From Treponema sp. (GTDB lineage: Bacteria > Spirochaetota > Spirochaetia > Treponematales > Treponemataceae): 64,000 nt of DNA. How positions within the stretch are numbered: position 1 is the first letter of the stretch; each line of letters opens with the position of its first letter. Below, in pieces: positions 25,660 to 47,721 of the stretch. The DNA lies in contig JAKSTG010000003.1 in NCBI GenBank assembly GCA_024402695.1, positions 94,482 through 158,481 of the forward strand, written 5' to 3'. Made by a program: the position numbers and the translations under genes. Under the pieces are notes generated by a model. The model searched no databases. It saw nothing but the letters and a program-made list of their open reading frames with translations, and was not told where the DNA came from.

Positions 25660-27594
25660 ATGAAAAATATTAAAAAAGTTGTTTTATTTCTTATTCTGAT
25701 TACCTTCCTTGCCAAAGGGTTTGCACTTGAATTTTCTCTTCGTGCTGTACCTACTGCATTTTTCCCTTGTTTGACTGGAGGTGCCGCAAAGTTTGAAACT
25801 GTTGGTGGCGGTGCATTTATTGATGGCGGCATCACACTTATGGACATGTTTGACGTTGGTCCTGAAATGGGAGTTTTCATTGTTCCTAAAATTGCATCAG
25901 GTGAATTTCTTGACGGTGAAGATCCAAACGCTGTTTTCATTCCTGTAGGAGTTCACGGAGAAGCAACTTTTTATCCTTTATCAAGACTTCAGACAACAGT
26001 CGGAGCTGCAGCCGGTTTTTATATCGGGACATCATCAAATAAAGTAGAGAACTCTGTATGGTATAGACTGTACGGAGACGCAGGTTTCAGACTTAACCCT
26101 ATGATTACTCTGGGTGTAAATGCGTCTCTTTTGGATTTTCAGAGCAGAACCTATTTCGGTAACCCTGGTTGTGCAGGTGTAACCGCAGGTGTTTCGGTTC
26201 AGGTAAAACTTGATACTGTTAAAAACGTAGGATCTGTTGACGGTGCCGTTTCTCAGGACGAAGATGTGTTCCCGCTTTTCTATGCAGTCTACAAAAATGT
26301 GCCTGTTGGGCAGGTCATAATAGGTAATAATGAGTCTGCCGGCATCAATAATGTGGTTGTAAAGTTCCGTGCAGCAGGTTATACCGCTTCGGAAATCGAA
26401 TGTGGCAGAATCAAATACATCAGAAAGCACAATACAGCTGAAGTTGATCTTTATGCCGACTTTGATGAGAACATTCTTCAGTTCTCTGAAGCCGGAAAAA
26501 TCCCTGGCGAAGTTGTAGTTGAATATGAACTCCTTGGTCAGAAGCGTTATTCAGTAATTCCTGTAATCATTCCTGTTTACAACCGTAACCAGGTCCGCTG
26601 GACTGATCCTGAAGTTCTGGCCAGTTATATTTCCGTTAAGTCTCAGGAAGTTCTTGAGTTTTCAAAATACGTAGTAGGAATTGCCCGTAACCATTTGCGT
26701 TCGGGGCTTAACCGTAACATGCAGTTTGCAATGTACCTTTTTGAAGGTATCAGACTTGCAGGCATCAAGTGCGAAAAAGATTCAGATACTCCTTATGCAG
26801 AATACCATGCTGATCCTGACATGCTTGACTTTATTCAGTATCCGTTCCAGACAATGCAGTTCAAAACAGGGGATTGTGATGATGTAGGAATCCTTACAAT
26901 GGCTCTTATGGAATCAGTTGGTATTCAGGTCGCATACATCCCTATGGCCGATGACTTTATTGTCTGCTTCAACACGGGAATCAAAGGAACAAAAGCTGAT
27001 TCTTTTTTTGACGGTTATGACCGCTTTATTGTAATTGGTGATGAAGTATGGATTCCACTGGCAATGTCTTCTCTCCGCGAAGGTTTCGTAAACTGCTGGT
27101 ATAAGGCAATTACTGATCTTCAGCAGGCAGAAGAAAACTACGAAGACATAAATCTTGTAATTCTTGAAGATGCCTGGCAAAGTTACGCACCTGCCGGTTT
27201 CTCAAGCGGAAAAGAAATTGATGTTAAGCCTGAAGAAGCGGCTCTTGTTTCTGCTTCCGAAGTTGATCTTTCACGTTATATCACAACTGAATACGGTCCG
27301 CGTATCGCAGCCGTTCAGGCTCAGATCAGAGCAAACGGACCAAGCGTAGAATTATACAATCAGCTTGGTCTTCTATATGTCCGTGCCGGAATGTACTCCA
27401 GTGCACTTCCGGTTTATGAACAGTCTGCAAAGATGGGTTCTACATCAGCTATGAACAATCTTGGAAACATCTGTTCTTTGCAGAAGAAATATGCTGAAGC
27501 CCTTGCATGGTACGAAAAGAGTCTTGAACTGGATCCTGAAAACAAGACCGCCTTGAAGGGTGTGGCTCGCATGAAAAGCGAGATAGAAAAGTAG
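25660..27594 (+). CDS. Outer-membrane-like protein with degenerate transglutaminase-like domain and TPRs
   Basis: A 644-residue exported protein. The signal peptide covers about 1-23 (LAKGFA). Residues ~25-180 alternate Gly/aromatic strands like a small outer-membrane barrel. An Ig-like segment (~195-305) ends in PVIIPVYNRN. A transglutaminase-like core follows with Cys406 in GDCDD. At the aligned catalytic positions the His of the neighbour is Asp432 and the Glu is Ala468, so catalysis is doubtful. Two TPR units (566-644) close the protein. The next gene begins 23 bases later and encodes a longer paralogue. The ribosome binding site is weak. The family name is unknown to me; the layout is seen directly. 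Confidence 0.75.
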   Translation: MKNIKKVVLFLILITFLAKGFALEFSLRAVPTAFFPCLTGGAAKFETVGGGAFIDGGITLMDMFDVGPEMGVFIVPKIASGEFLDGEDPNAVFIPVGVHGEATFYPLSRLQTTVGAAAGFYIGTSSNKVENSVWYRLYGDAGFRLNPMITLGVNASLLDFQSRTYFGNPGCAGVTAGVSVQVKLDTVKNVGSVDGAVSQDEDVFPLFYAVYKNVPVGQVIIGNNESAGINNVVVKFRAAGYTASEIECGRIKYIRKHNTAEVDLYADFDENILQFSEAGKIPGEVVVEYELLGQKRYSVIPVIIPVYNRNQVRWTDPEVLASYISVKSQEVLEFSKYVVGIARNHLRSGLNRNMQFAMYLFEGIRLAGIKCEKDSDTPYAEYHADPDMLDFIQYPFQTMQFKTGDCDDVGILTMALMESVGIQVAYIPMADDFIVCFNTGIKGTKADSFFDGYDRFIVIGDEVWIPLAMSSLREGFVNCWYKAITDLQQAEENYEDINLVILEDAWQSYAPAGFSSGKEIDVKPEEAALVSASEVDLSRYITTEYGPRIAAVQAQIRANGPSVELYNQLGLLYVRAGMYSSALPVYEQSAKMGSTSAMNNLGNICSLQKKYAEALAWYEKSLELDPENKTALKGVARMKSEIEK

Positions 27595-27617
27595 TTTTTA
27601 GTGGTAATTAAAAAAGT

Positions 27618-30600
27618 ATGGCAAAAAGAAAAACAACCCTGAAAGCAAAACGAGCTTCTTCTACGGCAAAAAAAGCCGCCGCAACTGCCGGTGTGGTTCT
27701 GTTCCTTGGAGCAACACCAGCTTATGCAAAACCTCAGTTTCTTTTAGGATTTTATCCTAATGTAAACATTCCGTTCTCTGTAGGCGGAAGTCCTTTGGGT
27801 GATTCGGCCGCAAAAGGAGAACTTGCTTACGGTATAGGCGGAACAGCCCGTTTCATTGTTCGTCCTGTTCCTATTGTTGATGTCTTTGCAGAAGGAACTT
27901 ACAACGTTCTGTCGTATCCTTATCTTAGAGACAATAAATATCTTGAACATCAGAAAATCAATCAGGTAAATGCTTATCTTGGAGCAGGGTATAATATCCC
28001 GCTTAATGACAGATTCAGCCTGAACGCTTCGATGAAAGCCGGTGTTTCTTTTGTAAACAGTGAACCGATTCTTTCTGCTGGAGCTTCTTTAGGATTCTCT
28101 TATAAATTCCATCCTGCTGTATCTGCCAGTGTAAATGTTAATGCCGATGTAAACGGACCAAAGATTATTCCTGTTGGACTTACTCCGGGGCTGGTAATCA
28201 ATCTGAATGAAGTTTTCTTCAAACAGAACAATGTTGATATTGAAGTTGTGGACCAGCAGCCGGTTTTCCCTGTTTTCTATTCATGGTATGAATCTAATGC
28301 CTTCGGTACAGTTCGAATCGCAAACCTGGAAGAAGGGGAAATCAGAAACGTAAAAGTTAGTTTCTTCCAGCCTCAGTACATGGCACAGCCTCATGTTTGT
28401 TGGGAAGAAGAAGTTCTTGGAAGAGAAGAGTTCATGGATGTAGACCTGACTGCCTTCTTCAATGAACGCATGCTGGAACTTACAGAACTTACAGATACTC
28501 AGTCTTCTGTAACAGTTGAATATACATATCTTGGACAGAAGCGCCGTAAAGAAATCCCTGTAATCATTCCGGTTTATGACCGTAACGCCATGAACTGGGA
28601 AGATGACCGCCGCGCCGCATCTTTCGTTTCCTCGAAAGATCCTGCCGCTATGTATTTCGCAAAACAGGTTGCAAGTATAGTCAGCGATAACCTTCGTTCC
28701 GGAGTCCCACAGAATATTCAGTACGCAATGGGTATTTTCGAAGCTTTGGATCAGTTCGGTCTGAGCTATGTTATTGACCCAACAAGTGCTTACTCCGACA
28801 AAATCGGAGGCAACTCAATCGACTTCCTTCAGTTCCCATACCAGACACTTATGTATCGTGGTGGTGACTGTGACGATATTTCCATTCTTGTCTGTTCGCT
28901 TTTTGAAGCAGTTTCTATTAATACCGCTTTCATTACAGTTCCTGGTCATATTTATATGGCTTTTGACACAGGCGTTTCCGAAGAAGATGCGCCTTCTCAG
29001 TTTTCGGATCTTTCGCAGGTAATTATTCGTGACGGAAAAGTCTGGATGCCTCTTGAAGTAACAATCAGTGATGAAGGATTCAATAAAGCCTGGCGCGTAG
29101 GTGCCCGTGAATGGAACGTTGCCGATATCAACGGCGAAGCAGCACTTTATCCTATGGCAGAATCCTGGCAGATTTACAAACCTGTAAGTGTGCCTGGTGC
29201 TCAGGCAAACTTTGTTATGCCTGAAAAGAGACTCATTGCAAAGCGTTTTGAACACCGCATTGATGAATGGGTTATGCGCGAAATTGAACCTTCAATCAGA
29301 GAATACAGAGCTGTTCTTGCCGCAAAATACGACAAAGCCGTTCAGAATAATCTTGGGGTTCTTTACAGCCGTTACGGACTTTTCAGCGAAGCTGAATCGG
29401 AATTCAAGGACCTTAGAAAAAAAGGTTACCTGCCTGCTGTAATCAATACAGCAAACGTTTACTTTGCAAAACAGAGCTACAACAAAGCTCTTGCTTCATA
29501 TAAAGCAGTTCTGCGTGAAGATCCAGAAAATGAACTTGCAGTTCTTGGTATTTCCCGCTGCCAGTGGGAACTTGGAAATTTCCGCGAAAGCGACAAGTAT
29601 TACGATCAGCTTAAGGAAATGAATCCTGAACTGGCCGGTGAATACACTTATCTGGCATCCTTTACTGAATCTAAAGGCCGTGCATATTCTTTGGCTGAAC
29701 GCCTGGATACTTTGTCCTGGTCTTTGCAGCATTCAGAAGCAATGCCTGTTAAAGAAGATGAGCGTCTTAAGAAAGCAGCTGTCAGCAACAATGAACCGGA
29801 GCCAGAATACGAACTTCCTCCTCTGGATCTGACAGATGAAAACCGTTTCGAAATGGACAACGTTCCTGAAGAAAAGAAACGCGAAACAGAAGAAGAACTT
29901 CTTGCAGAGATTCAGGAAGAAGAAAGGGAAGAAGCCGAAGCCGCAGAGCTTGAACCAGTTATCGAACAGAACCTGGTTCTGGCACCAGAAGATTTTGCCG
30001 TTGAAGAACTTGCAGCAGCCGAACCGGTTGCAGAACTGGAACCGGTTTCAGACCCTGAAACACTTTTTGCAGGGGAGCTTCCTGACTTCCTGTTTGCAGA
30101 TCTTAAATCTTTGGAACCAGACTTCCTCGTAGAAGAATCAGAAGAAGAAACTCCTGAAGAAAAGGCAATCGCCGCTCTTGAAAAAGAAAACAAAAAAGCA
30201 GAAGAGCCTGTATATCAGGATGTATGGACAAAAATCGTAGTTGAAGAAAAGAAGGAAGAAGAAGCTCCTGTAGTTAATCGTGAAATCCCACGCTTTACAG
30301 AATCTCCTTCTGCTGAATGGGCTCCAGAAGAAGCCTTCACTGTAGCAGTAATTCCTGGAATGCGCTCATTCGACGAAGAAATGGGAAATACCCAGAATGA
30401 AAAAGCCTTCCTTTTCCAGGAAACAGAAGACGATTCAGACGATGTTGAAAACTTTGACGTTTTTGCAAGCAACGAAGACACAGCAGTTCTTGCAAAACAG
30501 GAAGAAGACAATGTTGAAGTAAATCCATTCGGAAGCTTCTTTGACGATCCACTTCCACCTGTTCTTCCAGCCGAAGAACTTAAAGAAGAAATTAAGGCAG

Positions 30601-30995
30601 TTTCTGAAGAAAAGAATTCTGCTTATGAAAAATCAACAGAACCTGTTGTAACAGAAAATGTTGAAGCACCTGAAACAGAAGAAGTTTCTGGAATTGCTGA
30701 AGTTTCCGGAACCTCTGCAGCGGGAAAAGTTCCTGCGGTTGAAGTAAACGAAAGCGCAGCTCCGGCAATAGCCGTTGAATCAGCAGAAACTAAAGTTTCA
30801 GAAAAAATAGAAAACTCTGAGTCAAAGACCGAAGAAAGATCTTCCGCAGCTGAATCAGTTTCGGAAAAAGAAGAAAAGGAAAGTAAAGGTGGTATAGCCG
30901 CCGTTGTCGCTCTGCTCCTGTCTTCTGCAGGTGCTTTGAGTGTTAGCCTTAGCAAGAAAAAACGTAAGCCGGAATCGGCAGAAGGAAACAAATAA
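27618..30995 (+). CDS. Envelope protein: barrel-like N-terminus, transglutaminase-like domain, TPRs, acidic linker, C-terminal membrane helix
   Basis: An 1125-residue paralogue of the previous protein. The signal peptide (1-38) ends TPAYA. The order is: barrel-like domain 40-200, Ig-like 210-310, transglutaminase-like 330-490 with Cys418 (GDCDD), His444 (PGHIY) and Glu480 (WMPLEVT) as plausible catalytic triad, TPRs 574-681, and a ~360-residue Glu/Pro/Ala-rich linker (725-1085). It ends with a hydrophobic helix (1091-1111) and a Lys-rich tail SKKKRK. If the N-terminal barrel sits in the outer membrane and the C-terminal helix in the inner membrane, the acidic linker would span the periplasm; that is inference. 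The stop codon overlaps the ATG of the giant gene (TAATG). Confidence 0.75.
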   Translation: MAKRKTTLKAKRASSTAKKAAATAGVVLFLGATPAYAKPQFLLGFYPNVNIPFSVGGSPLGDSAAKGELAYGIGGTARFIVRPVPIVDVFAEGTYNVLSYPYLRDNKYLEHQKINQVNAYLGAGYNIPLNDRFSLNASMKAGVSFVNSEPILSAGASLGFSYKFHPAVSASVNVNADVNGPKIIPVGLTPGLVINLNEVFFKQNNVDIEVVDQQPVFPVFYSWYESNAFGTVRIANLEEGEIRNVKVSFFQPQYMAQPHVCWEEEVLGREEFMDVDLTAFFNERMLELTELTDTQSSVTVEYTYLGQKRRKEIPVIIPVYDRNAMNWEDDRRAASFVSSKDPAAMYFAKQVASIVSDNLRSGVPQNIQYAMGIFEALDQFGLSYVIDPTSAYSDKIGGNSIDFLQFPYQTLMYRGGDCDDISILVCSLFEAVSINTAFITVPGHIYMAFDTGVSEEDAPSQFSDLSQVIIRDGKVWMPLEVTISDEGFNKAWRVGAREWNVADINGEAALYPMAESWQIYKPVSVPGAQANFVMPEKRLIAKRFEHRIDEWVMREIEPSIREYRAVLAAKYDKAVQNNLGVLYSRYGLFSEAESEFKDLRKKGYLPAVINTANVYFAKQSYNKALASYKAVLREDPENELAVLGISRCQWELGNFRESDKYYDQLKEMNPELAGEYTYLASFTESKGRAYSLAERLDTLSWSLQHSEAMPVKEDERLKKAAVSNNEPEPEYELPPLDLTDENRFEMDNVPEEKKRETEEELLAEIQEEEREEAEAAELEPVIEQNLVLAPEDFAVEELAAAEPVAELEPVSDPETLFAGELPDFLFADLKSLEPDFLVEESEEETPEEKAIAALEKENKKAEEPVYQDVWTKIVVEEKKEEEAPVVNREIPRFTESPSAEWAPEEAFTVAVIPGMRSFDEEMGNTQNEKAFLFQETEDDSDDVENFDVFASNEDTAVLAKQEEDNVEVNPFGSFFDDPLPPVLPAEELKEEIKAVSEEKNSAYEKSTEPVVTENVEAPETEEVSGIAEVSGTSAAGKVPAVEVNESAAPAIAVESAETKVSEKIENSESKTEERSSAAESVSEKEEKESKGGIAAVVALLLSSAGALSVSLSKKKRKPESAEGNK

Positions 30996-33900
30996 TGAAG
31001 AAAGTTAGAAAAATTTTTGCTTTATCTCTCGCAGCTTTTATGCTTCTGACAGTTACAGCCTGTAAAAACTGGATGACAGGCGGACTTTTTGACAGCATTG
31101 AAGAAGAAGTAAAAGTTGCTACAGCAGACAAAATCCCTGTTTATGTAAGTACTGCCGCATCTGTAATGGGTAAGACAGTTCCAGAAGGAGAATCAACCCA
31201 GAAGATGGGAGTTTCTTTCACAGTAAAACTGGAACGTATTGAACCTTCTTATGCTTTTTACAAATGGTTTGCTTTCTCTACAAAGGATCTTGAAGAAGCA
31301 AAATCAGAAGGACTTGGAGATAAGTTCCCTTTCAATACACAGAACCCTAACAGAAACTTCGTTCTTGATGATGACTTCGAAACAAGATACATGAAGTATT
31401 CTGAAAAACTGGCCGGTGCAGTTGAAATCAAAAATGCAGACAAAGAAGAAGCCGTTGTAACAATCAAAGAAGTTCGAGATGACATTGTTATTGTTCCTGT
31501 TTGTGCAGCTCGCGCTGTTCTGAACTCCGATGATACTTATCCTGCAACTCTGGCCTACATGCTGGACCAGAGAGCCGTACGCAACCAGAGAGTTGTTCTG
31601 GCCTTTGACAAGGATATGGATTTTTCAACTTTTGTTACCTGTACAAATCCTTCAAAGACTTATGAAAAAGATGAAAACGACAATAATATTTATTACATCG
31701 AAAAAGAAGACGGGGATGTAGAATATTTCTATGACTGGGACCGTTCAAAGATTCAGATCTCGGTTTACGATACAAACAAAAACCTTCTTTCTGATGATGA
31801 ATCATATTCTTTCTTCAAGCTTCCAATGCCTAACCCAAAGGATAGCCGTCAGATCTTCATTACACCTGACACACAGAACAAGAAGCTTCCAAAATTTGCA
31901 AAAATCAGAATTACAATTGCTGAAGAAGTAAAAGACTCTTACGGTTACAAACTGGAAAGTGATATTGTTTATACTTATCTGGTAGGTGCAAGTGATGACG
32001 AAGGTAACCCAATCTTCAAACTTCTTTCTTGTGGTCGTCCTCGTACTGGTCTTGCCGCAAACGAAAACACCTGGTCCGATTACGATGGATTTATGGATGC
32101 CGAAGGAGACCTTACAACTGTTCTTCCTGAAGCTACTACAAACATCAATGACTGGACAAGCGACCTTGTGAGCCAGACTTTTGCACACCGTATTACAGAC
32201 AGAATTGATGTTCTTGTTCAGATTGTAGATATGGTTAAAGAGGGGGTTGAAAGTACAACCGCTTCCGACAACGAAATTGATCACTTTACAGTTCGCGCAC
32301 GCCACCTTGTAAACCTTGACGGAACTCCTGGAACAGGTGCAATCTATGAAAACATCGCCGAAAAAAATTACGATGCTCTTATTTACCATGGAGGCGCAAA
32401 GAACTTCGAAGACGGTGAACCTGGTGAAAATTGTAATGACCCTGATGCAGGTTATGCATTCCCATATTATCTTCCAGAAAATATTCCTGACGGACTTATA
32501 AAGCTGGAGTTTTTTGCAGTTGATATTACAGGAAACTCTGGGGAAGAGACTCCTTACGCAATTTACGTTGTAAAAGATACTTCAGCTCCTGATATTTCAT
32601 CTCAGGCAAGCAAAATTAAATCTGCTTCTGTAAATACACTGAACTCATGGTTCAATGACAGAACAATCGAAGCTCTTTCTTTCAGAGCTGATTCATCAAA
32701 CAAATTTGTAGATACAATTAATGTTGGAACAGAAGAGAATCCTGTAATTCATGATGTTGCTCCAATCTTCATGAGCGATGGAACCAATGCAAAACTTTTC
32801 TGGAACTTCGGTAATTCTCCAACAGACATGGCCGGCATTCAGGAAATTAAATACGGAGAAGATGACATTTACGAAATGACAAACCTGGTAGACTTTATTA
32901 AAGACCAGGGTGTTCAGGGTGCTATGACTTTCTATGCACAGGTATCCGATGACCTTGGAAACGTTTCTGATTTTGTAAAAATTCCTCTGGAAATTTACTA
33001 CGACAATCAGGCTCCTGCAAATACTGGAATCTTGCCTCCTGGAAGCGAAAATGGAATTTACCCTGAAACAGGAATTGAAAAGGGAAGCACATTAACAGAA
33101 CCTAAGAAATATTTTACACGCGATACATCTCTTTCACTTACACTTTCTTCTGTAGATGCAGATTCAGCTACAGGTGTTGAATCTGCCGCAGCCACTGCAA
33201 CTTCTTCGGGACTGGCAGGTTTCTTTGTTTCAGAATCAAAATATGCCGATGTACAGGCAGAAGCTCTTAAGGTAGAAAACGGTGTACAGATTTCACCGGA
33301 CTTCAAAAAGGCTGTAGACGGAAAATCAACCGTACAGTTTGCAACAGGGGCCGAAAACGATACAGGTAAAAATTACTTCCTGTACTCCATGGACTATGCA
33401 TTGAACCCTTCTGAAGTTCCTACAGAAATTACAGTTATTCAGGATACAACTGGTCCAGGCGTAGAATTTACAGACAATGCTTCCTACTCATACAAAGCTG
33501 AATCAGAATATTTTAAGGAACTGGATGATGAAGCCGACGGCTCAGACGATTCCGATATTGCTCTTGGAACAGCAGGAAGCGAAAACCTTTCTGGTGAAGT
33601 AAAAGGTGTTTCAAAGGGAATATATTATTACAACCTTTCACAGGATTCTTTCCCTATAGATGTAACAATTAAAAACCAGCACGCTGGCCTGGATTCAGGT
33701 CTCTACTATTTTGAAGTTGAAAATGCAGCAACAGGCGTTAAAACTTCTTATGGAATGAATGCCGCAAAAGCCACAGAAAGAACTGAATCTGTAAATCTTC
33801 CGGAAGGAACTTATAAAGTGATTGCCTACGATAATCTGGGCAACAAAACAGTAACAGAAACCTTCACAATTGTTCAGGATAAGAGCATTCCTGAAACAGG

Positions 33901-39900: not shown

Positions 39901-42900
39901 AGAAGGTAAATCTGTTTACCGCGCATCCGCACTTTCCACAGATTCAACAAGTCCTTCTGTAATTTATTTTAATTCGACATCAGCGGAAGATGGTGTAGAA
40001 ATTACATTCAGTGCTAAAGATACAGGAGAAAATGCAACAGGTGTTTACAAAGTAACAGTTGGAGGAAGCGGTCTTGCTTCAGGTGCTGACGGAGCTTCTG
40101 CAAGACTTGCAAATGCTATAAGCCTTTCAACTTCAGCTACAACCGTAACCTGGAACCTTGGTAAAGGTGAAGAAAAAACTGAAGGCGAAGCAAACGGACT
40201 TCTTCGTTCAATTACCATTACAGACTGGGTTGGAAACGCAACAACTTACTGGTTCAAGCTGATAAGCGATGTTACACCTCCAGCTGTAAGTCTTTCTTCA
40301 AACAGTCCGTTCGTTGAATCTACAGATATTTCTGTTTATATGACTTCAGTTGATGAAGAAAACAACAAGCTGAATCTGTATTTCAGCCCGACAATCTATG
40401 ATAGAAATAATGGATCAGGATCTGTTGATATTTTGATCAATAAGGTTTTGACAGGACTTTCTGATGACTGTTCAGGTCTTGTTGCAGATAAATGGTACAC
40501 AGACAGAGACTGTTCGGTTGAAGCAACCAAGATTACTCTTACCCAGTCATTCAGAAACAACAGGGCACAGGATCCTGTTGCTAGTCCGGCAAAATTCTAT
40601 GCAAAAGATAATGTTGGAAACCTGCTGGAATTCGATGTAGCTACAAAGGTAAATACTGTTTATTACAGTTCAAGTTACAGCCTTTCAATTCCTTATGCCG
40701 ACGGATGGTATGCTTCAAATATAAGTGAAGGAAAAATATCGTTCATGCCATCTACAACAACAACTCTTTACCTGAACGGAGCTAAGAATACAACCTTTAC
40801 AGTTGGTGATGCTAACGGAGTTAAGTACGTTCTTAAAGAAGGCGGTAGAAATAAGGACTCAGGAAATTTAGGTTGGGGTAACGGTGGATATGTAGATTCA
40901 TTCAGTTATAGATTGGAAACAGGAAAAACATATTCAATTGAACTTGGAAGCGCATGGAATCAGAATCTTCCAACAACAACATTCACTGTTCAGACTGTAC
41001 TGGATGATACAGTACCAGCAATCTCAGGAACTTATGTTGCAGCCCATACTTGGGAAGATTCTGATGGAAAACGTTACTATGCAGGAACCGACAATGGAAC
41101 TGTTTACATCAGCGAAAACGGTTCTGTTACAATCGCTCTTGGTAACGAACTTCTTTCTGATGCCGGTTCAGGTATAAAAGGCTGGTATCTGAATCCAACC
41201 GATAGAGCTGAATCTATTACTCTTAATAAGGACAACCTGGAACAGGATGTATTCCTTGTAGATAATATTGGAAATTATACCGTTCATAAGTTCTCTGTAA
41301 CTTTGGATAAAGATTCACCGGTTTATACTCCTGTGACCGGATCTGATCTTTTTGCAGTTCATGAGTATTCTGCCGAAGAACCATATAAGGTAACTGCAGC
41401 AAATAAAGTAATCTTTACCGGTGATTCATTGGAGCTTTCTCTTCCTGTAATTTCGGATTCAGGTTCCGGACTTAATGGAAACTGGACTGTCAAAACCGGA
41501 ACTGCAGTTTATAGTTCTGTTACAAACAAGATTACATTTACAGGAACTGAATCAGTTACTCTGGCTCTTTATGACAATGTAAACAATGAGACTGAAGTAA
41601 CTGTAAATGCATTTAAAGTAGGCGAAATTCCTGCACTTTCTCTTGCAAAAGCTGATTCGGACATTGAAACCGGAACCTTCGGTGAAGCTTCATACACAGT
41701 TTATACAAAAGCAGATGCAGCTGTATTTAATGTTACAAAAACAAATGAGCTTGCAGGCTTCACAACTTTCAAGTGTGGAGACGATGAAATAAGCGGAAAT
41801 ACACTTTCACTTGGAAACGGAAACTATGTTCTTAAAGCATCAGATGAACTGGGAAGAGAAACAATTTATAATCTTACAGTTGTTGTTGATCAGACAGCCC
41901 CTGACTTTACAGGAAACATAGTTCCTGCAGAACATTTCTGGAGTGAAGCTGAACCTTATTTTGCCGCTGCTGCTGGAAATTCAATTGTTGTAAACGGAAA
42001 ACTTGCATCGGGAACTCCAGTTCAGTTTACACTGCCTGCAGCAAGTGACGGGGATGCAGGAGTAGGTGTAGACGGCTGGTACGAAAGTTCAACTGAAAAC
42101 GGAACTTATACAAAAATCACAGAAACCTCAGTTTCTGTATCAGGAGAAAAATGGCTTTGTCTTAAAGACCGCCTTGGAAATGCTTCTGTTCCTTTCCAGT
42201 TTGCAAGTGTAGAAAATACAAGACCTTCACTTGCAACAGGTTATGAAGGGGCAGGTTCTGTCCAGGATGGTACAAATACATATACAGCTGGTAAATCAGT
42301 ATTTACAACCTGGTACAGCAGTAAGTCTTACCCGGACAAATGGAACGGTTCAACAAACTTCATGGCTGCCGGAACTAAGGGAGGAGATGAAGCAGATACT
42401 TCTCACAATAATTTAGTGGCAGCAGTTGTTACAGAAACTGGAAGTGGAATCTATCAGCTTATTCTGAAGACTGTCGCAGAACCTAAAGTAAACTGGATTG
42501 GTTACATGGATCCTTTATATGAAAATGGAAGTATCAAGTATAATGATACAACTCAGATTGCCGGGGCTCAGAGTTCACAGGCAAAGTATAATCCATTGAA
42601 CTCTGTCCAGATAGATAAGTCATATTATATCAAGGGCTGGTCAGTTCAGACTTCTGAAACTCCGGATGCAGATGGAACTTATACAACTGTTATTACTCTT
42701 CCTCTTAAACCTTATGTTCTTAATCCGACAAACGGAACCAAGGATGATGTAAACAATGCTACTGGAACACAATTGGAAAGTTCTTTGAAACTGAGTAATA
42801 ACCAGTATATTTTCGTATTCGGTAAAAATATTGGAAATAGCCTTGAAGTTGTTGATTTTGCAGGAAACTCTTCAAATGATGTGGCAGTTTCTGCTTCCGT

Positions 42901-43459
42901 AAACACTTCACTCTTCGGACGCTTTACTGTGGCAATCACAGAAATCTCTTCGAAGATCCCTGAAGCTGTAGGCGGCACAATCCGTCGCGCCTTTACTTCA
43001 AACGACAGAAGTGAAGTTAAGAATGAACGTAAAGCCCGCAAGGCAGAAAAATCAACAGCAGTTCAGGCACCTGTTGTAACACAGACAACAGAACAGACTT
43101 CAAAAGAAGGAAAGAAAGTTCTGCAGAATGTTGCTGAACGTGCCGCAGAGCTTGAAGCCGCTTCAAAATCAGCTGGAACTTCAACCTTCCGCCATGAAGC
43201 AGAAGCAATTCTTGCAGCGGGAGCAAAGGTTCTTCCTGAAATCGCAGAAGAGGCCGAAAATTGCGGTATTTCTCCTGAAGTTAATATTTCTGAAAATGTT
43301 GTAAATTCAGAGAAAATTCTTGCCAATAACGGTGATGAAATGTATAATAACTCTAATATTGCAAAAAGTGTGGTCATTTCTATCATCGCTGTTCTGTTAC
43401 TTCTTTGCAGTTTACTTGTTATCATTAAGACAACAAAAAAACAAAACGAAAAAAAATAG
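30995..43459 (+). CDS. Giant 4154-residue Ig-repeat lipoprotein with C-terminal membrane helix
   Basis: This single uninterrupted frame of 12.5 kb starts with a lipoprotein signal (LLTVTAC, Cys23). Residues ~190-335 resemble an SbsA-type bacterial Ig domain (VVLAFDKDMDFSTF, then KIRITIAEEVKDSYGY). About twenty Asp-x-x-x-Pro linkers (DTSAP, DTTGP, DQTAP, DKTAP, DSTAP and similar) mark consecutive beta-sandwich modules. Residues 817-1262 and 1263-1712 form a tandem ~450-residue repeat. A charged helical stalk (~4000-4110) leads to a membrane helix at about 4126-4144 and a basic tail. Lipid at one end and a membrane helix at the other is unusual. It is coupled to the preceding gene by TAATG. Possible roles are adhesin, surface fibre or periplasm-spanning tether; none is proven. 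Confidence 0.8.
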   Translation: MKKVRKIFALSLAAFMLLTVTACKNWMTGGLFDSIEEEVKVATADKIPVYVSTAASVMGKTVPEGESTQKMGVSFTVKLERIEPSYAFYKWFAFSTKDLEEAKSEGLGDKFPFNTQNPNRNFVLDDDFETRYMKYSEKLAGAVEIKNADKEEAVVTIKEVRDDIVIVPVCAARAVLNSDDTYPATLAYMLDQRAVRNQRVVLAFDKDMDFSTFVTCTNPSKTYEKDENDNNIYYIEKEDGDVEYFYDWDRSKIQISVYDTNKNLLSDDESYSFFKLPMPNPKDSRQIFITPDTQNKKLPKFAKIRITIAEEVKDSYGYKLESDIVYTYLVGASDDEGNPIFKLLSCGRPRTGLAANENTWSDYDGFMDAEGDLTTVLPEATTNINDWTSDLVSQTFAHRITDRIDVLVQIVDMVKEGVESTTASDNEIDHFTVRARHLVNLDGTPGTGAIYENIAEKNYDALIYHGGAKNFEDGEPGENCNDPDAGYAFPYYLPENIPDGLIKLEFFAVDITGNSGEETPYAIYVVKDTSAPDISSQASKIKSASVNTLNSWFNDRTIEALSFRADSSNKFVDTINVGTEENPVIHDVAPIFMSDGTNAKLFWNFGNSPTDMAGIQEIKYGEDDIYEMTNLVDFIKDQGVQGAMTFYAQVSDDLGNVSDFVKIPLEIYYDNQAPANTGILPPGSENGIYPETGIEKGSTLTEPKKYFTRDTSLSLTLSSVDADSATGVESAAATATSSGLAGFFVSESKYADVQAEALKVENGVQISPDFKKAVDGKSTVQFATGAENDTGKNYFLYSMDYALNPSEVPTEITVIQDTTGPGVEFTDNASYSYKAESEYFKELDDEADGSDDSDIALGTAGSENLSGEVKGVSKGIYYYNLSQDSFPIDVTIKNQHAGLDSGLYYFEVENAATGVKTSYGMNAAKATERTESVNLPEGTYKVIAYDNLGNKTVTETFTIVQDKSIPETGNFSIWGTKIVPEGENGYNSESTNIRTVDLVFSSDDTVVMDSSNTGIRKLILKGASFRQDNLVVKAGETVLVKNTDYLIQAAADDSEETYITFIRPRTETSYRIENVMLPEEDGRKYIYIKAMDASGNTNADWIDAYIDSDSQAPSISSVSGLASKYMLDSTGNRTYTNSNIISVEIKAHDKTSGIKQIYITDTASEVPNVSGGVVGNNTIPAGTKLIQNNSVVTVNGVERASTYENGMITLDSPVDTEEDVTIIVTNVRIPDDTKQGMQTVHVILFDNTGLRNESSKPASIVYDTTGPAIEVEDYASSTFDGITHKKYRSNDTASDILAVTGTTGRVNGLVSGDYFYNLEEGSASENPGFRFIVTIKDENITNNQLVADGSTSGIYKFYVDKVLASSVEEGTTAYNSGDHIYLTEGTYRIRALDNLENQTVSNNIHVKADNGRPVNVTDLVITGKYKDGVTPYSTATAIKDVKINFSAGDDESGKVNTGIYKITFSGDAVFANATLNVVTESNGVRTVTPLVKKTDGNSGWDYSMTAGNGTVQFLFREPVAERRIYEVQGVRLTDSDAKKTISISIADFTENESASDGTAEIFKDETEPVTSNVNIISTDPEVVQGENKLNVTNDEKVTVTFSIYDVTSGIKKITICDKNGNSLLTTGTDGSVITAVRDGNSVVLSATVSADAIVFENAGAMISETSFNFTVTNVSMPKENGDFVQGRNYFYVKAYDDVLNVASEAATGSIVFDNVPPKPLIEFAGSHFFDPKQSRKMSSSYSAYMDEVGKIFFSNSSYFYFKVDGGDDSSEGIETAGYAGYKVWYKTSAFDVSDPATYSGSKPPVSGDWYRIDNSQKYIKIFVYDAIGNYSTLVPGFTDFQLVDDQTAPAKVDYKIYKSGTNTEISDSFNDENPEADVVFKVKDTLSGISYFDFSDSHNSGDNSMWNQIISGSPDLRVEVSEDDGVTWKTYKEGKYDPAVDQHYSSVAGGATYDAEKGYFVDSEGNLDPYVYFHNYMENGKPFARCFAFYEPLKPNKEYTIKISNISFANNTKIRPSDSRTNWDSDIGFNIYVYDCVQKGCLSLEKPLVWDTHKPEIKGVEFAASEGYDPNFTSDLSLTKHDLVITYDEPKDSTYGGASGVKDIKLELTTNIGTIDLSTVNLLSSDNLKLYAKSGSSETALTIKEKKLLEASSSKTSSLITISSPSSTVKGSSYKLVIKGLTIAGGDVDMVENIKVTLTDFAGNVSDNTGNTNNVVEIGYDKTAPVMHPVYGNEVIDGKLARSYFKTVFGKPTVLSLHHATSNSDSTKIHNNSSIANNMVFNIFPEPGDEIQNYGDGIECPAPYSGTAWEDNADLTELVLRFNKNGSGVKSIKLAAEGNSVDSWDFRRILFNPSKVRVSIDEGQHWYSPGSSALPYTVTSDTLTFTNSGICPKGENCSVMIKGIMPNFKATYCRHNSDGDYRENIWWSDVVVTSFANKANTYNFALALADDVDTPELTRKKISVTDTSSTDTSFTDGETIQIKGRIQSKSTHKVYSSGLWAIQLSGAEFDPSVNPSFKAYISKPTGDYGRKLLLPNSVTYDDGDLISYSYDSTNDYSVRRTVDELTTVSKVDANPSQFKFSISSDKSTLYLNMPLDIDDTQDFTLSGIKLPSGVLDGNHDGAQNISLKLIKYSGLTNDPDDRYWDYDESNERDESYKTMFREVEAYYSATEEHRCAVNFAQNRTNSITLDTVDPVITWYDASDYNPNYFRLAPQDEQGRTVYYAGSSGYSYINFNFQDDSGIKGFAFTNTATAPTRPSDFYIANTQKYDIYYFNETNESLNVVKYIHVMDNTGHVTSRPVTYLASEDSVPTIWKVDNTKPSVKTVTRHYYGDTAETRYVLNLVSTDASSPKLNVYKGISDTLSGKFTDSYIEFDPSTQEYQTVPGDVNDFFEDSGSGLYGTCPTTQTGGAYFDKIYVDESGNPDFTWKTSDSYFKVMDKVGRGCEKSIGISSYVDSTAPILGISGITAPEGKSVYRASALSTDSTSPSVIYFNSTSAEDGVEITFSAKDTGENATGVYKVTVGGSGLASGADGASARLANAISLSTSATTVTWNLGKGEEKTEGEANGLLRSITITDWVGNATTYWFKLISDVTPPAVSLSSNSPFVESTDISVYMTSVDEENNKLNLYFSPTIYDRNNGSGSVDILINKVLTGLSDDCSGLVADKWYTDRDCSVEATKITLTQSFRNNRAQDPVASPAKFYAKDNVGNLLEFDVATKVNTVYYSSSYSLSIPYADGWYASNISEGKISFMPSTTTTLYLNGAKNTTFTVGDANGVKYVLKEGGRNKDSGNLGWGNGGYVDSFSYRLETGKTYSIELGSAWNQNLPTTTFTVQTVLDDTVPAISGTYVAAHTWEDSDGKRYYAGTDNGTVYISENGSVTIALGNELLSDAGSGIKGWYLNPTDRAESITLNKDNLEQDVFLVDNIGNYTVHKFSVTLDKDSPVYTPVTGSDLFAVHEYSAEEPYKVTAANKVIFTGDSLELSLPVISDSGSGLNGNWTVKTGTAVYSSVTNKITFTGTESVTLALYDNVNNETEVTVNAFKVGEIPALSLAKADSDIETGTFGEASYTVYTKADAAVFNVTKTNELAGFTTFKCGDDEISGNTLSLGNGNYVLKASDELGRETIYNLTVVVDQTAPDFTGNIVPAEHFWSEAEPYFAAAAGNSIVVNGKLASGTPVQFTLPAASDGDAGVGVDGWYESSTENGTYTKITETSVSVSGEKWLCLKDRLGNASVPFQFASVENTRPSLATGYEGAGSVQDGTNTYTAGKSVFTTWYSSKSYPDKWNGSTNFMAAGTKGGDEADTSHNNLVAAVVTETGSGIYQLILKTVAEPKVNWIGYMDPLYENGSIKYNDTTQIAGAQSSQAKYNPLNSVQIDKSYYIKGWSVQTSETPDADGTYTTVITLPLKPYVLNPTNGTKDDVNNATGTQLESSLKLSNNQYIFVFGKNIGNSLEVVDFAGNSSNDVAVSASVNTSLFGRFTVAITEISSKIPEAVGGTIRRAFTSNDRSEVKNERKARKAEKSTAVQAPVVTQTTEQTSKEGKKVLQNVAERAAELEAASKSAGTSTFRHEAEAILAAGAKVLPEIAEEAENCGISPEVNISENVVNSEKILANNGDEMYNNSNIAKSVVISIIAVLLLLCSLLVIIKTTKKQNEKK
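33443..36130 (+). repeat. Two tandem ~450-codon repeats inside the giant gene
   Basis: Unit 1 (33443-34780) and unit 2 (34781-36130) both begin DTTGP. Both proceed through GxYYxNL or DYFYNL, LPEGTYKVIAYDNLGN or LTEGTYRIRALDNLEN, NTGIRKLIL or NTGIYKITF, and a third module with DKTSGIKQIYI or DVTSGIKKITI. They are diverged copies, so the duplication is not recent. Confidence 0.7.
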
Positions 43460-43490
43460 CGGATTTTGAATCTGCTTATCAAAATTAGTA

Positions 43491-43518
43491 GTCACGGGAT
43501 AAATGAGGAACCCGTGAC
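43491..43518 (+). promoter_or_regulatory. Stem-loop just upstream of the first FecR-like gene
   Basis: GTCACGGG/CCCGTGAC is a perfect 8-bp stem with a 12-base loop and ends 4 bases before the CGGAGGA ribosome binding site. It has no T run. It could protect or process the mRNA so that the small downstream genes are expressed above the giant gene. Confidence 0.5.
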
Positions 43519-43530
43519 ACCGGAGGAAAT

Positions 43531-43947
43531 ATGAAAGCAAAAAAAGTTATTCTTGCAGTCGTATTCGCAGTTGTAGCTGCCTGTGCATTCGCAGCAGACT
43601 ACACAGTAGCCAGCGTTACAGGAAAAGTTCAGTATGAATCTGCACCTGGAACATGGAAAGACATCGCAAAGGGAGATGTATTATCAGCCTCAACAGTTAT
43701 CAATACTGGTCTGAACTCAAAACTCGTTCTTAAGATCGACAGCGACACAATCACAATCAAACCTATGCAGAAAGGAACAATCGAAAAGCTTCTTTCTACT
43801 TCTGGTGTTGTAAAAAGTGGTGCCAAAGGCAAACTGAACGTAGCTAAAGGTGAAACAGCAGACGATGAAACTGTAAAATCGAAGGGTATTTCAACTGCTT
43901 CTTCTCGCGCTTCAGAAGCAAAAGAAGACCTGGAATGGGACGAATAA
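43531..43947 (+). CDS. Small secreted FecR-like protein 1
   Basis: A 138-residue protein with a signal peptide (about 1-21, ACAFA-A). The rest is a FecR-like domain: SVTGKVQYE, WKDIAKGDVLS, INTGLNSKLVLKIDSDTITI. It lacks the cytoplasmic and transmembrane parts of the FecR anti-sigma protein, so this is a stand-alone periplasmic or surface version. The C-terminus RASEAKEDLEWDE is nearly the same as in the next protein. GGAGG lies 6 bases before the ATG. From memory, T. pallidum carries FecR-like proteins next to an adenylate cyclase (TP0483-TP0485 region), one of them reported to bind fibronectin; the relation here needs alignment. Confidence 0.82.
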   Translation: MKAKKVILAVVFAVVAACAFAADYTVASVTGKVQYESAPGTWKDIAKGDVLSASTVINTGLNSKLVLKIDSDTITIKPMQKGTIEKLLSTSGVVKSGAKGKLNVAKGETADDETVKSKGISTASSRASEAKEDLEWDE

Positions 43948-43978
43948 TCCCGACTATCCTAAATCTTAAGGAATGGTT

Positions 43979-44365
43979 ATGAAAAAAAGTTTATTGGTAG
44001 CAGCTCTTGTTGCTGTGGTAAGTATGTCTGCTTTTGCAGAAAAACTTACAGTGTCTTACGTAGAAGGCAAAGTAACAGTTCTTACAGGCGATGAATGGAT
44101 TTCTGTTTCAGAAGGAATGGTTCTTGATACAGAAGATTCAATCAATACAGGACTTAACGCTGCTGTAGCTTTCGACAACGGTGACTCAATCAAACCAATG
44201 AGAAAAGGCAAGATTTGTGACCTTGTTAAAGCATCTTCAGGAAGCATGGTTCTTGGTTCAAAACTGACAAAAGAATCTATGAAAACTCTTGCAGCAGCTA
44301 ATAAGACTGCAGACGGTGCAGGACGTGCATCGGAAGCCAAAGAAGATCTGGACTGGGACGAGTAA
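43979..44365 (+). CDS. Small secreted FecR-like protein 2
   Basis: A paralogue of the previous gene: signal peptide ending SAFA, then VSYVEGKVTV, WISVSEGMVL, INTGLNAAVAFDNGDSIKPM and the tail RASEAKEDLDWDE. The conserved 13-residue tail in two otherwise diverged proteins suggests it is a recognition or docking signal. I use the ATG at 43979, because the AAGGA ribosome binding site overlaps the ATG at 43973. A terminator follows 41 bases after the stop. Confidence 0.82.
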   Translation: MKKSLLVAALVAVVSMSAFAEKLTVSYVEGKVTVLTGDEWISVSEGMVLDTEDSINTGLNAAVAFDNGDSIKPMRKGKICDLVKASSGSMVLGSKLTKESMKTLAAANKTADGAGRASEAKEDLDWDE

Positions 44366-44406
44366 TCCCGGAACAAATTACATCATGATTTGTTAATTTA
44401 TTGATC

Positions 44407-44464
44407 AAAATCCTGTGGGGAGGGAACCGGTTAATCAGGTTGGACTCTCACAGGATTTTTTTTT
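44407..44464 (+). terminator. Terminator between FecR-like 2 and the cyclase gene
   Basis: AAAATCCTGTG (44407-44417) pairs over 11 bp with CACAGGATTTT (44449-44459), with inner AACC/GGTT pairing and a run of nine T. It would limit read-through into the cyclase gene. Confidence 0.82.
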
Positions 44465-44511
44465 GATTTAACTGAACGAATATACTTCAAATAAAAAGTA
44501 TTGAGGAATTT

Positions 44512-47325
44512 ATGAAAAAGTATCTTAGTTTTGTGATTGCATTTCTTGCAATCGGTCTTTGTTGTCTTTCTATCTTTACCAGTGTAGATAACAAAATCAA
44601 CGACGTGTTCATGAGAGCAACACATCCTACCGAAGAAAGCGACAAAGTTGTAATGCTCATGGTAGATGACAACTCTGTTGAACATGTTGGAACCTGGCCA
44701 TGGAACCGTAACGTTATGGCAGATACAATCGTCTATGCACGCGAACTTGGCGCCGACTCGGTTGTATTCGATCTTAGCTATCTGGATCCTAGCAGCCGTT
44801 CTGCCGATCCGGAATACGTAGAAAAAGAACTTCCAGGTTATATTGACCAGGGCTTTGAGTCTCTTTCTCAGGGTGTAAGCGATATTATCGATTATTTTGC
44901 AGACGGCACACTTACTGCCGACGATGCAGAATACGCAAAAGAAAGTTTCGTTGAATCAAGCGAATCTGTAAAAGACCAGATCAAGACAAACGTTTCTTAC
45001 GTTGTAACAGACAACGATGCTTACCTTGCAAACTGTCTGAACTTCTTTGAGAACGCCTTCCTTACTCTGGACTTTGAAAATCGTGATGAAAACGAAGGCA
45101 GCCCAAAAAGTTCTGATATTTACTACCTGGCTACAAAAATTGCCCTACAGAACATTGATGCTTCACAGGACACAAAAACTCCTGAATTCAATACAATGAT
45201 GCCGGCCTTGGACTGCCTTATTAAGAAAGCCCATGGTGCAGGTTTCGTAAACTCTGAACCTGACGACGACGGTTACCGCCGCCGCGTTCACCTGGTTTTC
45301 AAGTACGACGGCGTTTACTACGGGCAGCTGGTATTTGTTCCACTTCTGAACAAATTCGGAAATCCAGAAGTTGTCATTACAGACAAAACAATCACTCTTA
45401 AAGACGCAAAAATTTCTGAAACAGAAACAAAGGATATCGTCATTCCTCGCTGTGAAGACGGATCTGTTCTTATCAATTTTCCAAAAGAGAAAGCCTTCAA
45501 GGGAAAGAAATTCCTTGATTACAACTACATCAGCGTATGGAGCATCTATCAGCTTAAACGCGCAGAAAAAGCTCTCCTTAGACAGCTTAAGGATATGGAT
45601 GATGGAGCTGTGTTCCTTGACCTTGGTCTTGATGATACTCCTCTTGATATTTACCAGAACGCAGACTATATCCGCGAAGCAATGTACGAAGGCACAGATG
45701 ATGAAATTAACTTTGAAACCTTCACTCAGTACAGAAACGACTTCTTTGATCTGGTAGGAGAAATTCTTTCTGATGAAACTCTTGAATTCCTTCTTGATTT
45801 GAACGAAGAGTATGAAGAATACTGTGAATCGCTTAAAGAAATCTTCGAAGAAACAAGAACTACTTACAATTCAATCATGAAATGTCGTGAAAAGGTTCAT
45901 GACCAGATTAACGGTGCTATGCTGATTGTAGGTACTTCTGCTACAAGTACAACTGACTACGGCCTTACACTTTACGAAGAAAACTTCCCTAACGTAGGTG
46001 TTCACTCGGCTGTTGCCAACATGATTCTTGCAGAAGACTTCCTTGATGATTCTCCATGGTGGATTTCTTTAATCCTGGCTGTTATCTTCTGTATGCTTTA
46101 CCTCGTTATTGCTAAGAAACTTTCTACAGGTAAATCACTTATCGTCGGTTTTGCTCTGTTGGTAGTTTTGTTTACTTCAGAATGGGGCTTCTTCGCTCTT
46201 ACAAAAATCTACATCGGAACTTTCATTCCGGTTGTTTCTTTGTTCGTTACTTTTGTTGCCCTTACGGTTATCGGTTACCTTACAGCCAGCCACGAAAAGA
46301 AATTCATTCAGGGTGCATTCGCCCAGTGTCTTTCAAAGGACGTTGTTAATGACATCGTAAACAATCCTTCAAGCCTGAAGCTTGGTGGTGAAAACCGCAA
46401 CATGTCGGCCATCTTTACAGACATCCAGAAATTCTCAGGCTTTAGTGAACTTATGAACGCCGACGAACTGGTTGCTCTTCTTAACTATTACCTTACTCCA
46501 ATGAGTGACATCATTATGGAAGAGGGCGGAATGGTTGATAAATATGAAGGTGATGCTATCGTTGCTCTGGTTGGTGCTCCGCTCCAGATGGAAGACCACG
46601 CAGCCCGTGCCTGTGCCGCAGCCCTTAAGATGAAGAAATATGAAAAGAAAATGAACGATGAAATCGTAGCTTATTCAATCAGCGATGCTACAGATATTCC
46701 TGAAAATCTTCGTTCTGCATTCAAAAAACTTACATCTCACGGTCGCCGCATCTTTACCCGCATTGGTATCAACTCGGGAGAAATGGTTGCCGGATTCATG
46801 GGTTCTGAAAAGAAAAAGAACTACACAATGATGGGTAACAACGTAAACCTTGCATCCCGCCTTGAAGGGGTAAACAAACAGTATTCGACTGGCGGTATCA
46901 TGATTTCTGAAGCAACTAGAAATCTGATCGGCGATGAGTTTATTGTTCGTTCCCTGGACCGCGTTCAGGTTGTAAACGTTAAGACTCCAATGCGCCTTTA
47001 TGAACTTATGGAAACAAAGGCCGATGCAGACGAAAAACTTCTTAAGTATGTTGCATACTGGGAAGCCACAATGAAAGTATTCGAAAGCGGGGATTATTCA
47101 AAGGCTCTGGAAATGTTCAAGAAATGTTATGCCGCAAAGTCTGACGACAAAGTTGCTGAATATTACATTACTTTGATTGAAAAGTTCTTTATCAATGGAA
47201 CTTACCCAACCAAAGATGATGACTTCGGTGTTGAATACAACGCAGAAAACCCAGAAGACATGGATCCTTCTTGGGTAGGCACCCCTAAAGAGATTAAGGG
47301 TACATTTACTTTATTGAATAAATAG
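44512..47325 (+). CDS. CHASE2-domain class III adenylate cyclase
   Basis: A 937-residue membrane receptor enzyme. An N-terminal membrane helix is followed by a large extracytoplasmic CHASE2-like sensor (about 35-500). Three membrane helices (about 520-600) and a class III cyclase domain (about 630-830) come next, with an unassigned helical tail last. Metal-binding Asp637 (FTDIQKFSGF) and Asp681 (KYEGDAI) are present, as are Asn779 and Arg783 (NVNLASR). The purine-selecting pair is Lys677 and Thr772; Lys/Thr is typical of class IIIb enzymes, many of which respond to bicarbonate, so ATP rather than GTP is expected. Its place after two FecR-like proteins suggests those feed the CHASE2 sensor. 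Confidence 0.9.
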   Translation: MKKYLSFVIAFLAIGLCCLSIFTSVDNKINDVFMRATHPTEESDKVVMLMVDDNSVEHVGTWPWNRNVMADTIVYARELGADSVVFDLSYLDPSSRSADPEYVEKELPGYIDQGFESLSQGVSDIIDYFADGTLTADDAEYAKESFVESSESVKDQIKTNVSYVVTDNDAYLANCLNFFENAFLTLDFENRDENEGSPKSSDIYYLATKIALQNIDASQDTKTPEFNTMMPALDCLIKKAHGAGFVNSEPDDDGYRRRVHLVFKYDGVYYGQLVFVPLLNKFGNPEVVITDKTITLKDAKISETETKDIVIPRCEDGSVLINFPKEKAFKGKKFLDYNYISVWSIYQLKRAEKALLRQLKDMDDGAVFLDLGLDDTPLDIYQNADYIREAMYEGTDDEINFETFTQYRNDFFDLVGEILSDETLEFLLDLNEEYEEYCESLKEIFEETRTTYNSIMKCREKVHDQINGAMLIVGTSATSTTDYGLTLYEENFPNVGVHSAVANMILAEDFLDDSPWWISLILAVIFCMLYLVIAKKLSTGKSLIVGFALLVVLFTSEWGFFALTKIYIGTFIPVVSLFVTFVALTVIGYLTASHEKKFIQGAFAQCLSKDVVNDIVNNPSSLKLGGENRNMSAIFTDIQKFSGFSELMNADELVALLNYYLTPMSDIIMEEGGMVDKYEGDAIVALVGAPLQMEDHAARACAAALKMKKYEKKMNDEIVAYSISDATDIPENLRSAFKKLTSHGRRIFTRIGINSGEMVAGFMGSEKKKNYTMMGNNVNLASRLEGVNKQYSTGGIMISEATRNLIGDEFIVRSLDRVQVVNVKTPMRLYELMETKADADEKLLKYVAYWEATMKVFESGDYSKALEMFKKCYAAKSDDKVAEYYITLIEKFFINGTYPTKDDDFGVEYNAENPEDMDPSWVGTPKEIKGTFTLLNK

Positions 47326-47344
47326 AAGTTTTTAATTAAACATC

Positions 47345-47484
47345 TTAAAAATGGACTCCCGGTCTCAAAATGGATGTGCAGGACGCGCATATTGCGCTGC
47401 ACGTTGAGCGTGTATAGGAACCTATAAAGCCACGCTCAAAGTGCCACTGCACATCACATTTTGCTCCCTCGCGTCCATTTTTAA
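47345..47484 (-). repeat. Long-hairpin element B, copy 2
   Basis: The interior is nearly the same as at 15.7 kb, in opposite orientation. The terminal stem is different, TTAAAAATGGAC/GTCCATTTTTAA, a perfect 12 bp. Confidence 0.85.
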
Positions 47485-47520
47485 GGCTTTTGGTTAAACG
47501 TACATATTAAAACAACAAAT

Positions 47521-47659
47521 AAAAACTTACGCGAAGGAAAAAAGTGTGCCATCAGCAAGACTCGTAGCGCGGCTCGATAGTTTCTTTGCCGCGCGTACGC
47601 GTCTAGCGACGCTAGCTAGCGTTGCTAGATGGCCACTTTTTGACTGGGAGTATGTTTTT
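47521..47659 (+). repeat. Long-hairpin element A, copy 2
   Basis: 139 bp, identical in reverse complement to 15492-15630 except one base in the terminal stem (GTATG for GTAAG). Confidence 0.88.
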
Positions 47660-47721
47660 GAGTTTTCAATTTATATGTACGTTCAATTTAAACCGCTAAG
47701 TATTATCGACAGGGTATTTTA

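Follow-up and report, generated by a model that had tools for sequence, protein, structure and literature searches.

A Treponema gene cluster of predicted outer-membrane barrel proteins, small FecR-like proteins and a CHASE2 adenylate cyclase

Results

Organization of the cluster

We analysed a window of 64,000 nucleotides from the genome of Treponema sp. (assembly GCA_024402695.1; 3.01 Mb in 139 contigs; the window lies on contig JAKSTG010000003.1, here C63), and describe six open reading frames (ORFs) that lie side by side on its forward strand. The first two encode paralogs: P1 (P0001, 644 residues; 25660..27594), which by homology carries barrel, Ig-like, transglutaminase-like and TPR regions, and P2 (P0002, 1125 residues; 27618..30995), which is predicted to form an outer-membrane barrel and probably contains a cysteine-peptidase domain. 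These are followed by a giant lipoprotein with a conserved N-terminal part and a variable body (P0003, 4154 residues; 30995..43459), two small proteins resembling FecR and the LapA retention module (P0004, 138 residues, 43531..43947; P0005, 130 residues, 43973..44365), and a class III adenylate cyclase with a CHASE2 domain (P0006, 937 residues; 44512..47325). Positions and sizes agree with a preliminary description of the same sequence, as do the 23-base gap between the P1 and P2 genes (27595-27617) and the TAATG overlap of the P2 and giant genes around 30993-30997. The six genes are adjacent, as described there, but a terminator-like hairpin with a T-run between the second FecR-like gene and the cyclase gene (44408..44463, forward strand) had been missed. 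We consider it likely that the barrel, FecR-like and cyclase genes form one pathway that passes a surface signal inward.

Conservation of gene order and gene content

The closest genome records are metagenome-assembled genomes of Treponema sp. (horse faeces; UBA1747), and relatives are also carried by T. bryantii, T. ruminis and T. zioleckii isolated from the rumen. In a long form, P1, P2, the giant, one or two FecR-like genes and the cyclase follow one another on one strand; besides the window, this full order recurs in four other genomes (G029, G014, G051 and the complete genome of T. ruminis RU1), which answers the call for a synteny check in the preliminary description. The FecR-cyclase pair lies downstream on the opposite strand in G297 and T. 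bryantii NK4A124, and upstream in G048. A compact form, consisting of P1, a short P2, a FecR-like gene and the cyclase, occurs at seven loci (L026, L044, L045, L051, L058, L060 and L063), and in three of these the FecR-like and cyclase genes overlap. At L043, P1, P2 and the cyclase are present with a FecR-like match in between. L026 is a second, compact module in the same genome as the window (contig C13, 8176-14820), whose genes almost abut or overlap and whose cyclase gene is directly followed by an ORF for a lipoprotein-like protein of 2747 residues. A third form has P1 and P2, alone or next to a lipoprotein gene, and the stretch retrieved contains no adjoining FecR-cyclase pair (L027, on contig C58 of the window's own genome, and L042, L059, L061, L062 and L065). 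In a further arrangement, at L193 and L194, a CHASE2 cyclase is divergent from a run with a protein of 392-401 residues (no Pfam match) and a longer FecR protein of the PF04773 family. Close to some P1-P2 loci, the ends of an ORF in L027 (1648-3036) and of ORFs near L032, L054 and L060 resemble, by eye, GGDEF or EAL enzymes of cyclic di-GMP (c-di-GMP) metabolism.

Gene content follows the same pairing. When P0002 was compared with 59 genomes of the genus, 46 had some match and 17 had one of at least 200 bits (hereafter a strong P2), while most matches below 200 bits were confined to around the TPR region. A short FecR-like gene (at least 94 bits) was present in all 17 strong-P2 genomes and in 3 of the 42 others (Fisher 4e-12), and a cyclase of the P0006 type (at least 520 bits) in 16 of the 17 and 5 of the 42 (Fisher 3e-9), both values being uncorrected for kinship. 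The single strong-P2 genome with no such cyclase, G026, is 74% complete and has a FecR-like gene of the compact type at a contig start. All 24 cyclase matches of at least 520 bits, which are the best 24 of 84, have a FecR-like match within 7 kb, on the same strand in 21 cases. At the level of the phylum, 45 of 296 genomes contain a match to the P2 profile (E<=1e-3), and the module is thus patchily distributed. The co-occurrence and the seven compact loci uphold the earlier proposal that the barrel proteins, the FecR-like proteins and the CHASE2 cyclase belong together.

P1 and P2 are a likely pseudopeptidase and peptidase pair

The AlphaFold model of P2 consists of an OmpA-like 8-strand barrel, an Ig-like domain (residues 206-326; 28233..28595), a transglutaminase/LapG-like cysteine-peptidase domain (residues 330-520; 28605..29177) and TPRs (residues 537-675; 29226..29642). 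Fold comparison of this model recovered the likeness of the predicted barrel to OmpA, and placed LapG among the matches of the peptidase-type domain. The preliminary description had staked its reading on an N-terminal barrel, which model and fold comparison both predict for P0002. The P2 profile covers P1-type proteins almost end to end (for example positions 5-522 of 530 in G048), and by this homology P1 probably shares the barrel architecture. The TPRs are clear in both P0001 and P0002 by Pfam, as had been stated; the transglutaminase-like domain (PF01841) is weak in these two proteins, but is well represented elsewhere, matching 22 of 31 relatives at E<=0.1, and of 64 domain pieces all but one match at E<=1. 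Three of 31 P2 proteins are also matched by PF24575 (TPR_Slam), and a search of PDB sequences with the P2 profile gave a single match, at E 0.23. As a separate observation, residues 232-452 of P0002, in the Ig-like and peptidase-like region, weakly match the NCBIfam model NF058533, "anti-phage protein ProA" (1.1e-6; 26 bits, the cut-off being 1500).

A Cys-His-Glu pattern in the peptidase-type domain (in P0002, C418 at 28869-28871, H444 at 28947-28949 and E480 at 29055-29057) is retained in all 31 aligned P2 proteins. The His and Glu are missing from all 29 aligned P1 proteins, leaving a degenerate active site. The Cys is present in 110 of 110 distinct P2-like genes, as GDCDD in 106 and GDCSD in four. 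One P2 set had been picked by GDCDD, and the Cys count from that set is circular. On these grounds, P2 is likely to be a transglutaminase/LapG-like cysteine peptidase at the outer membrane, and P1 its degenerate twin. The preliminary description had proposed the barrel pair, but had overlooked the pairing of a likely active with a degenerate peptidase.

The small proteins resemble the LapA retention module and share a tail

P0004 and P0005 had been called FecR-like. This holds at a distance, since three longer proteins found with the profile of the small-protein family score over the cut-off for PF04773, but PF04773 itself matches neither P0004 nor P0005 at E<=0.1, and the two are not FecR proteins in the strict Pfam sense. 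A model of the LapA retention module matches all 16 aligned small proteins at E<=0.01 (best 1.5e-7), with P0004 and P0005 below its cut-off; searched against PDB sequences, the small-protein profile gave a best E of 0.28. Neither this likeness nor the common tail described next had been noticed in the preliminary description.

Both proteins end in a short conserved sequence, the RAS...W tail (43906..43944 in P0004 and 44324..44362 in P0005), which also ends 118 of the 120 listed FecR-like homologs. In the 98 homologs that end in W[DEA]E, nine inner positions are invariant (T, A, S, R, A, S, A, K, W), and all 98 carry TASSRAS apart from two TASAR variants; in Lap systems, cleavage takes place at [T/A/P]AAG following the retention module. 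TAAS is present in L026 and L150. The tail is not restricted to the small proteins. A tail of the same kind closes 20 of 24 unpaired, complete P2 proteins (the majority from other spirochaetes) and 11 of 83 P1-type proteins, and is found on none of 66 complete paired P2 proteins and on one of 857 unlabelled ORFs. Among 109 distinct loci, 44 have the tail on exactly one of P1, P2 and the FecR-like protein and none has it on two, in a count that left out P2-like matches below 300 bits, FecR-like matches below 100 bits, incomplete genes and duplicates. The carrier is the FecR-like protein in Treponema, and P2 or P1 in other spirochaetes. Such an exchange among partners, seen at the level of sequence, suggests that P1, P2 and the FecR-like proteins serve one machine, in which the tail may be a cleavage site or a docking tag.

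The giant lipoprotein and the C-terminal helices

P0003 has a predicted lipobox cysteine at residue 23 (31061-31063). Its slot is occupied by a conserved start and a changeable body: the first 110 mature residues of 15 giants share 40% mean pairwise identity, and, of the 4132 mature residues of the window giant, 154-1339 are covered by any other giant at E<=1e-5, the closest relative excepted. P0003 has no Pfam or NCBIfam match and a single PDB sequence match (E 0.56), and its assignment to a known family was rejected for lack of a Pfam or NCBIfam match. The term Ig-repeat used in the preliminary description is consequently justified through relatives rather than through P0003 itself: two giants from the same slot have one Big_5 Ig-like domain each over cut-off, and, among four lipoproteins examined from distant loci, Big_13 was found in three and FG-GAP repeats in the fourth.

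Near their C-termini, P2 (residues 1093-1111; 30894..30950; mean Kyte-Doolittle 2.2) and the giant (residues 4126-4144; 43370..43426; mean Kyte-Doolittle 3.4) each have a hydrophobic stretch followed by a basic tail. In 15 long-form pairs, a set that excludes L027 with its 1537-residue helix-less lipoprotein beside a short P2, such a helix is found in 12 giants and 13 partner P2 proteins: in both partners of ten pairs, in the giant alone in two and in P2 alone in three. It is also present in 109 of the 120 P2 homologs listed. The 12 short P2 proteins inspected from the compact form all lack it. The double tether across the periplasm that had been proposed thus recurs as a sequence feature but is not obligatory, and tethering cannot be the sole signal route. 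We rejected a sorting-signal reading of these helices, as no common motif precedes them by eye. The P2 proteins of G051 (L034, 6602-10711) and T. ruminis (L166 and L167) have, instead of the hydrophobic stretch, another conserved-looking end; a SPOR-like end was considered for that of G051 and rejected, with no SPOR match at E<=0.01.

The cyclase and the junction upstream of it

P0006 is the CHASE2 cyclase that it had been taken for, with CHASE2 (residues 10-351; 1.2e-27) and the class III catalytic domain (residues 629-832; 1.6e-21) both over the Pfam cut-off. Among PDB sequences, an adenylate cyclase fusion matches it best (8.1e-31), and P0006 probably makes cyclic AMP (cAMP). Pfam found no GGDEF, EAL or HD-GYP match in P0006. 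A defence-system reading was rejected, PADLOC having matched P0006 alone and only with cyclase models. Domains that bind cyclic nucleotides are encoded on four contigs of the same genome, which makes a cAMP readout possible.

The hairpin upstream of the cyclase gene is more stable than shuffled sequences (z -3.1, folding 44385-44465), as are two further junction hairpins (z -4.0 and -3.9). Nineteen same-strand FecR-cyclase junctions comprise 12 with a stable hairpin and at least five T, four gene overlaps and three with neither, including L034 and L092, at which the cyclase gene may begin further downstream than called. With a terminator-like hairpin before the cyclase, the six genes may not form one simple transcript; partial termination that keeps the cyclase below the FecR-like proteins is a plausible role. 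Two other structures lie nearby. A hairpin with no T-run lies in the interval between the giant and P0004 genes (43457-43530), just 5' of the P0004 start, and a long inverted-repeat-like structure lies 3' of the cyclase gene (47340-47640; the fold of 47323-47725 has -155.7 kcal/mol, with no shuffle control), which may represent a small mobile element or a repeat. An Rfam scan of the window at gathering thresholds found tRNA alone.

Discussion

A candidate pathway from the outer membrane to a cyclase

How might these proteins act together? Tentatively, we favour an outside-in sensor of the envelope that leads to cAMP, with the Lap-like peptidase of P2 as its likely switch, while recognising that this reading may well prove wrong. 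In such a pathway, the state of the P1/P2 pair and the giant would be relayed to CHASE2 in the cyclase by way of the small FecR-like proteins. P2, held at the outer membrane and paired with P1, would cut or grip the RAS...W tail; the altered FecR-like protein would then contact and act on CHASE2, and this input would change cAMP production. The preliminary description is supported in part: the genes are likely to belong together, and the tether that it proposed seems not to be essential. A more specific version goes further, and we think it improbable in full: a spirochaete cAMP pathway controlled by regulated proteolysis, in which a barrel-built LapG-type peptidase and a pseudopeptidase would act on a portable RAS...W tag of a retention-module-like protein, the product would switch a CHASE2 cyclase, and the tag would move between peptidase, pseudopeptidase and small protein by lineage.

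Several observations weigh against the favoured pathway. In three genomes (G009, G013 and G043), a short FecR-like gene is present without a strong P2. G009 has the end of a large helix-tailed protein, a FecR-like gene and a cyclase lined up side by side, and in G013 the end of a protein of this kind adjoins the FecR place, so that in these two P2 may lie past the contig ends. A CHASE2 gene on contig C35 of the same genome as the window has no FecR-like match within 7 kb. The cyclase of the compact locus L051 is split into two frames, and although gene order is conserved, several P1-P2 loci have no FecR-cyclase neighbour. Finally, a tailed P2 occurs at L139, in a genome with no CHASE2 match, so that the tail itself may have a target other than CHASE2.

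The direction of the signal could also be reversed, a possibility that we regard as unlikely but worth setting out. On this view, the small retention-like proteins together with the P2 peptidase would govern whether the giant stays at the surface or is let go, with the cyclase either setting that state or sensing it, much as LapD and LapG do for LapA. The LapG fold match of P2, the resemblance of all 16 small proteins to the retention module and the variable body of the giant are consistent with this, as is the D-C-D sequence beside the putative nucleophile, which is also found at the calcium site of DvhG (PMC13090378). However, both its name and its position mark CHASE2 as an extracytoplasmic input domain, P0006 carries no fused GGDEF/EAL receptor, the giant is a lipobox protein with no match that marks type 1 secretion, and six of the seven compact loci have no giant annotated beside the module in view, although L026 has its 2747-residue lipoprotein-like ORF directly after the cyclase.

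Alternatively, P1 and P2 could mature or anchor large lipoproteins, with the FecR-cyclase pair as a co-encoded monitor of envelope stress. A lipoprotein-type gene does follow P2-like genes in many lineages, often with an overlap of a few bases and also where no FecR-cyclase pair is present, and TPR domains are frequent in assembly factors. Yet a barrel of eight strands would not be wide enough for a giant to be exported through it, and the compact loci and tight co-occurrence suggest a closer link to the cyclase; such a role in assembly or quality control therefore seems to us rather improbable. The mechanical tether of the preliminary description, with P2 and the giant spanning the periplasm and pulling on a sensor, draws on the recurrent helices of both proteins, but the compact form has no helix while retaining FecR and cyclase, and one partner lacks it in 5 of 15 pairs, which makes the tether quite doubtful. 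The compact loci argue less clearly against the giant than against the tether, since the search for giants in those genomes covered these loci only. That the genes are neighbours with no common function is very improbable: linkage is incomplete and hairpins part FecR from cyclase at 12 of 19 junctions, but the order recurs, the genes stay nearby even where rearranged (G297, T. bryantii NK4A124 and G048), and the co-occurrence is strong.

Comparison with known systems

Elements of the cluster recall several established systems. Like the Slam exporters of surface lipoproteins, P2 combines TPRs with a predicted barrel beside lipoprotein genes; Slam has an N-terminal TPR region and a large C-terminal barrel, whereas the P2 barrel is N-terminal, has eight strands and precedes the TPRs. 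In FecIRA, a periplasmic domain of the FecR superfamily stands between outer and inner membrane. Unlike that FecR, P0004 and P0005 are probably exported proteins of 138 and 130 residues, with no room for a cytoplasmic anti-sigma part. Among the titles and abstract openings listed, we found no description of the present system in the literature on CHASE2, FecR, Treponema cyclases, giant lipoproteins and LapA/LapG, a survey outside whose scope most subscription papers fell; the main text of the T. ruminis genome paper (PMC8049484) contains no occurrence of FecR, adenylate cyclase or transglutaminase.

Only in a few cases has the route by which a signal passes from the outer membrane through the periplasm to a CHASE2 cyclase been outlined. 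In S. meliloti, the outer-membrane barrel NsrA is reported to be needed for signalling to the inner-membrane CHASE2 cyclases CyaK, CyaD1 and CyaD2, with cAMP as output (PMC7529298, PMC13001267). P0002 would likewise offer a predicted outer-membrane barrel partner beside a CHASE2 cyclase, here with two paralogous small-barrel proteins bearing a peptidase-like domain, separate FecR-like proteins, a giant and a common tail. In Campylobacterota, CHASE2 cyclases cluster with FecR, TPR and phosphodiesterase genes, and outside-in signalling has been suggested (PMC9239204). That cluster shares with ours the CHASE2 cyclase, a FecR-domain protein and a TPR protein; it has a phosphodiesterase, and no peptidase domain, giant or barrel pair is named in the part of that paper available.

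Like the Lap and Dvh systems (LapA-LapG-LapD and DvhA-DvhG-DvhD; PMC13090378), the cluster unites at one locus a retention-module-like sequence, a giant envelope protein, a cyclic-nucleotide protein and what may be a transglutaminase-like cysteine peptidase. The cluster differs in a presumed catalytic Glu in place of Asp, a likely peptidase fused to a barrel and accompanied by a pseudoenzyme twin, a giant that is a lipoprotein, a separate retention-like protein, and a CHASE2 cyclase replacing the c-di-GMP receptor. Two defining features of Lap are therefore absent, and this is not a Lap system: P0006 is not a LapD-type c-di-GMP receptor by its domain matches, and the retention module is not on the adhesin itself, as P0003 has no NCBIfam match and the likeness resides in P0004 and P0005. 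The module provides a clear set of parts, a compact version that occurs in nature, a likely active-site residue (C418) and a short conserved tail. If the pathway is real, Lap-like parts would be wired to cAMP, in a phylum with poorly understood outer-membrane biology. The cluster may thus be a new variant of outer-membrane-to-CHASE2 signalling whose parts, by likeness, would work as they do in Lap.
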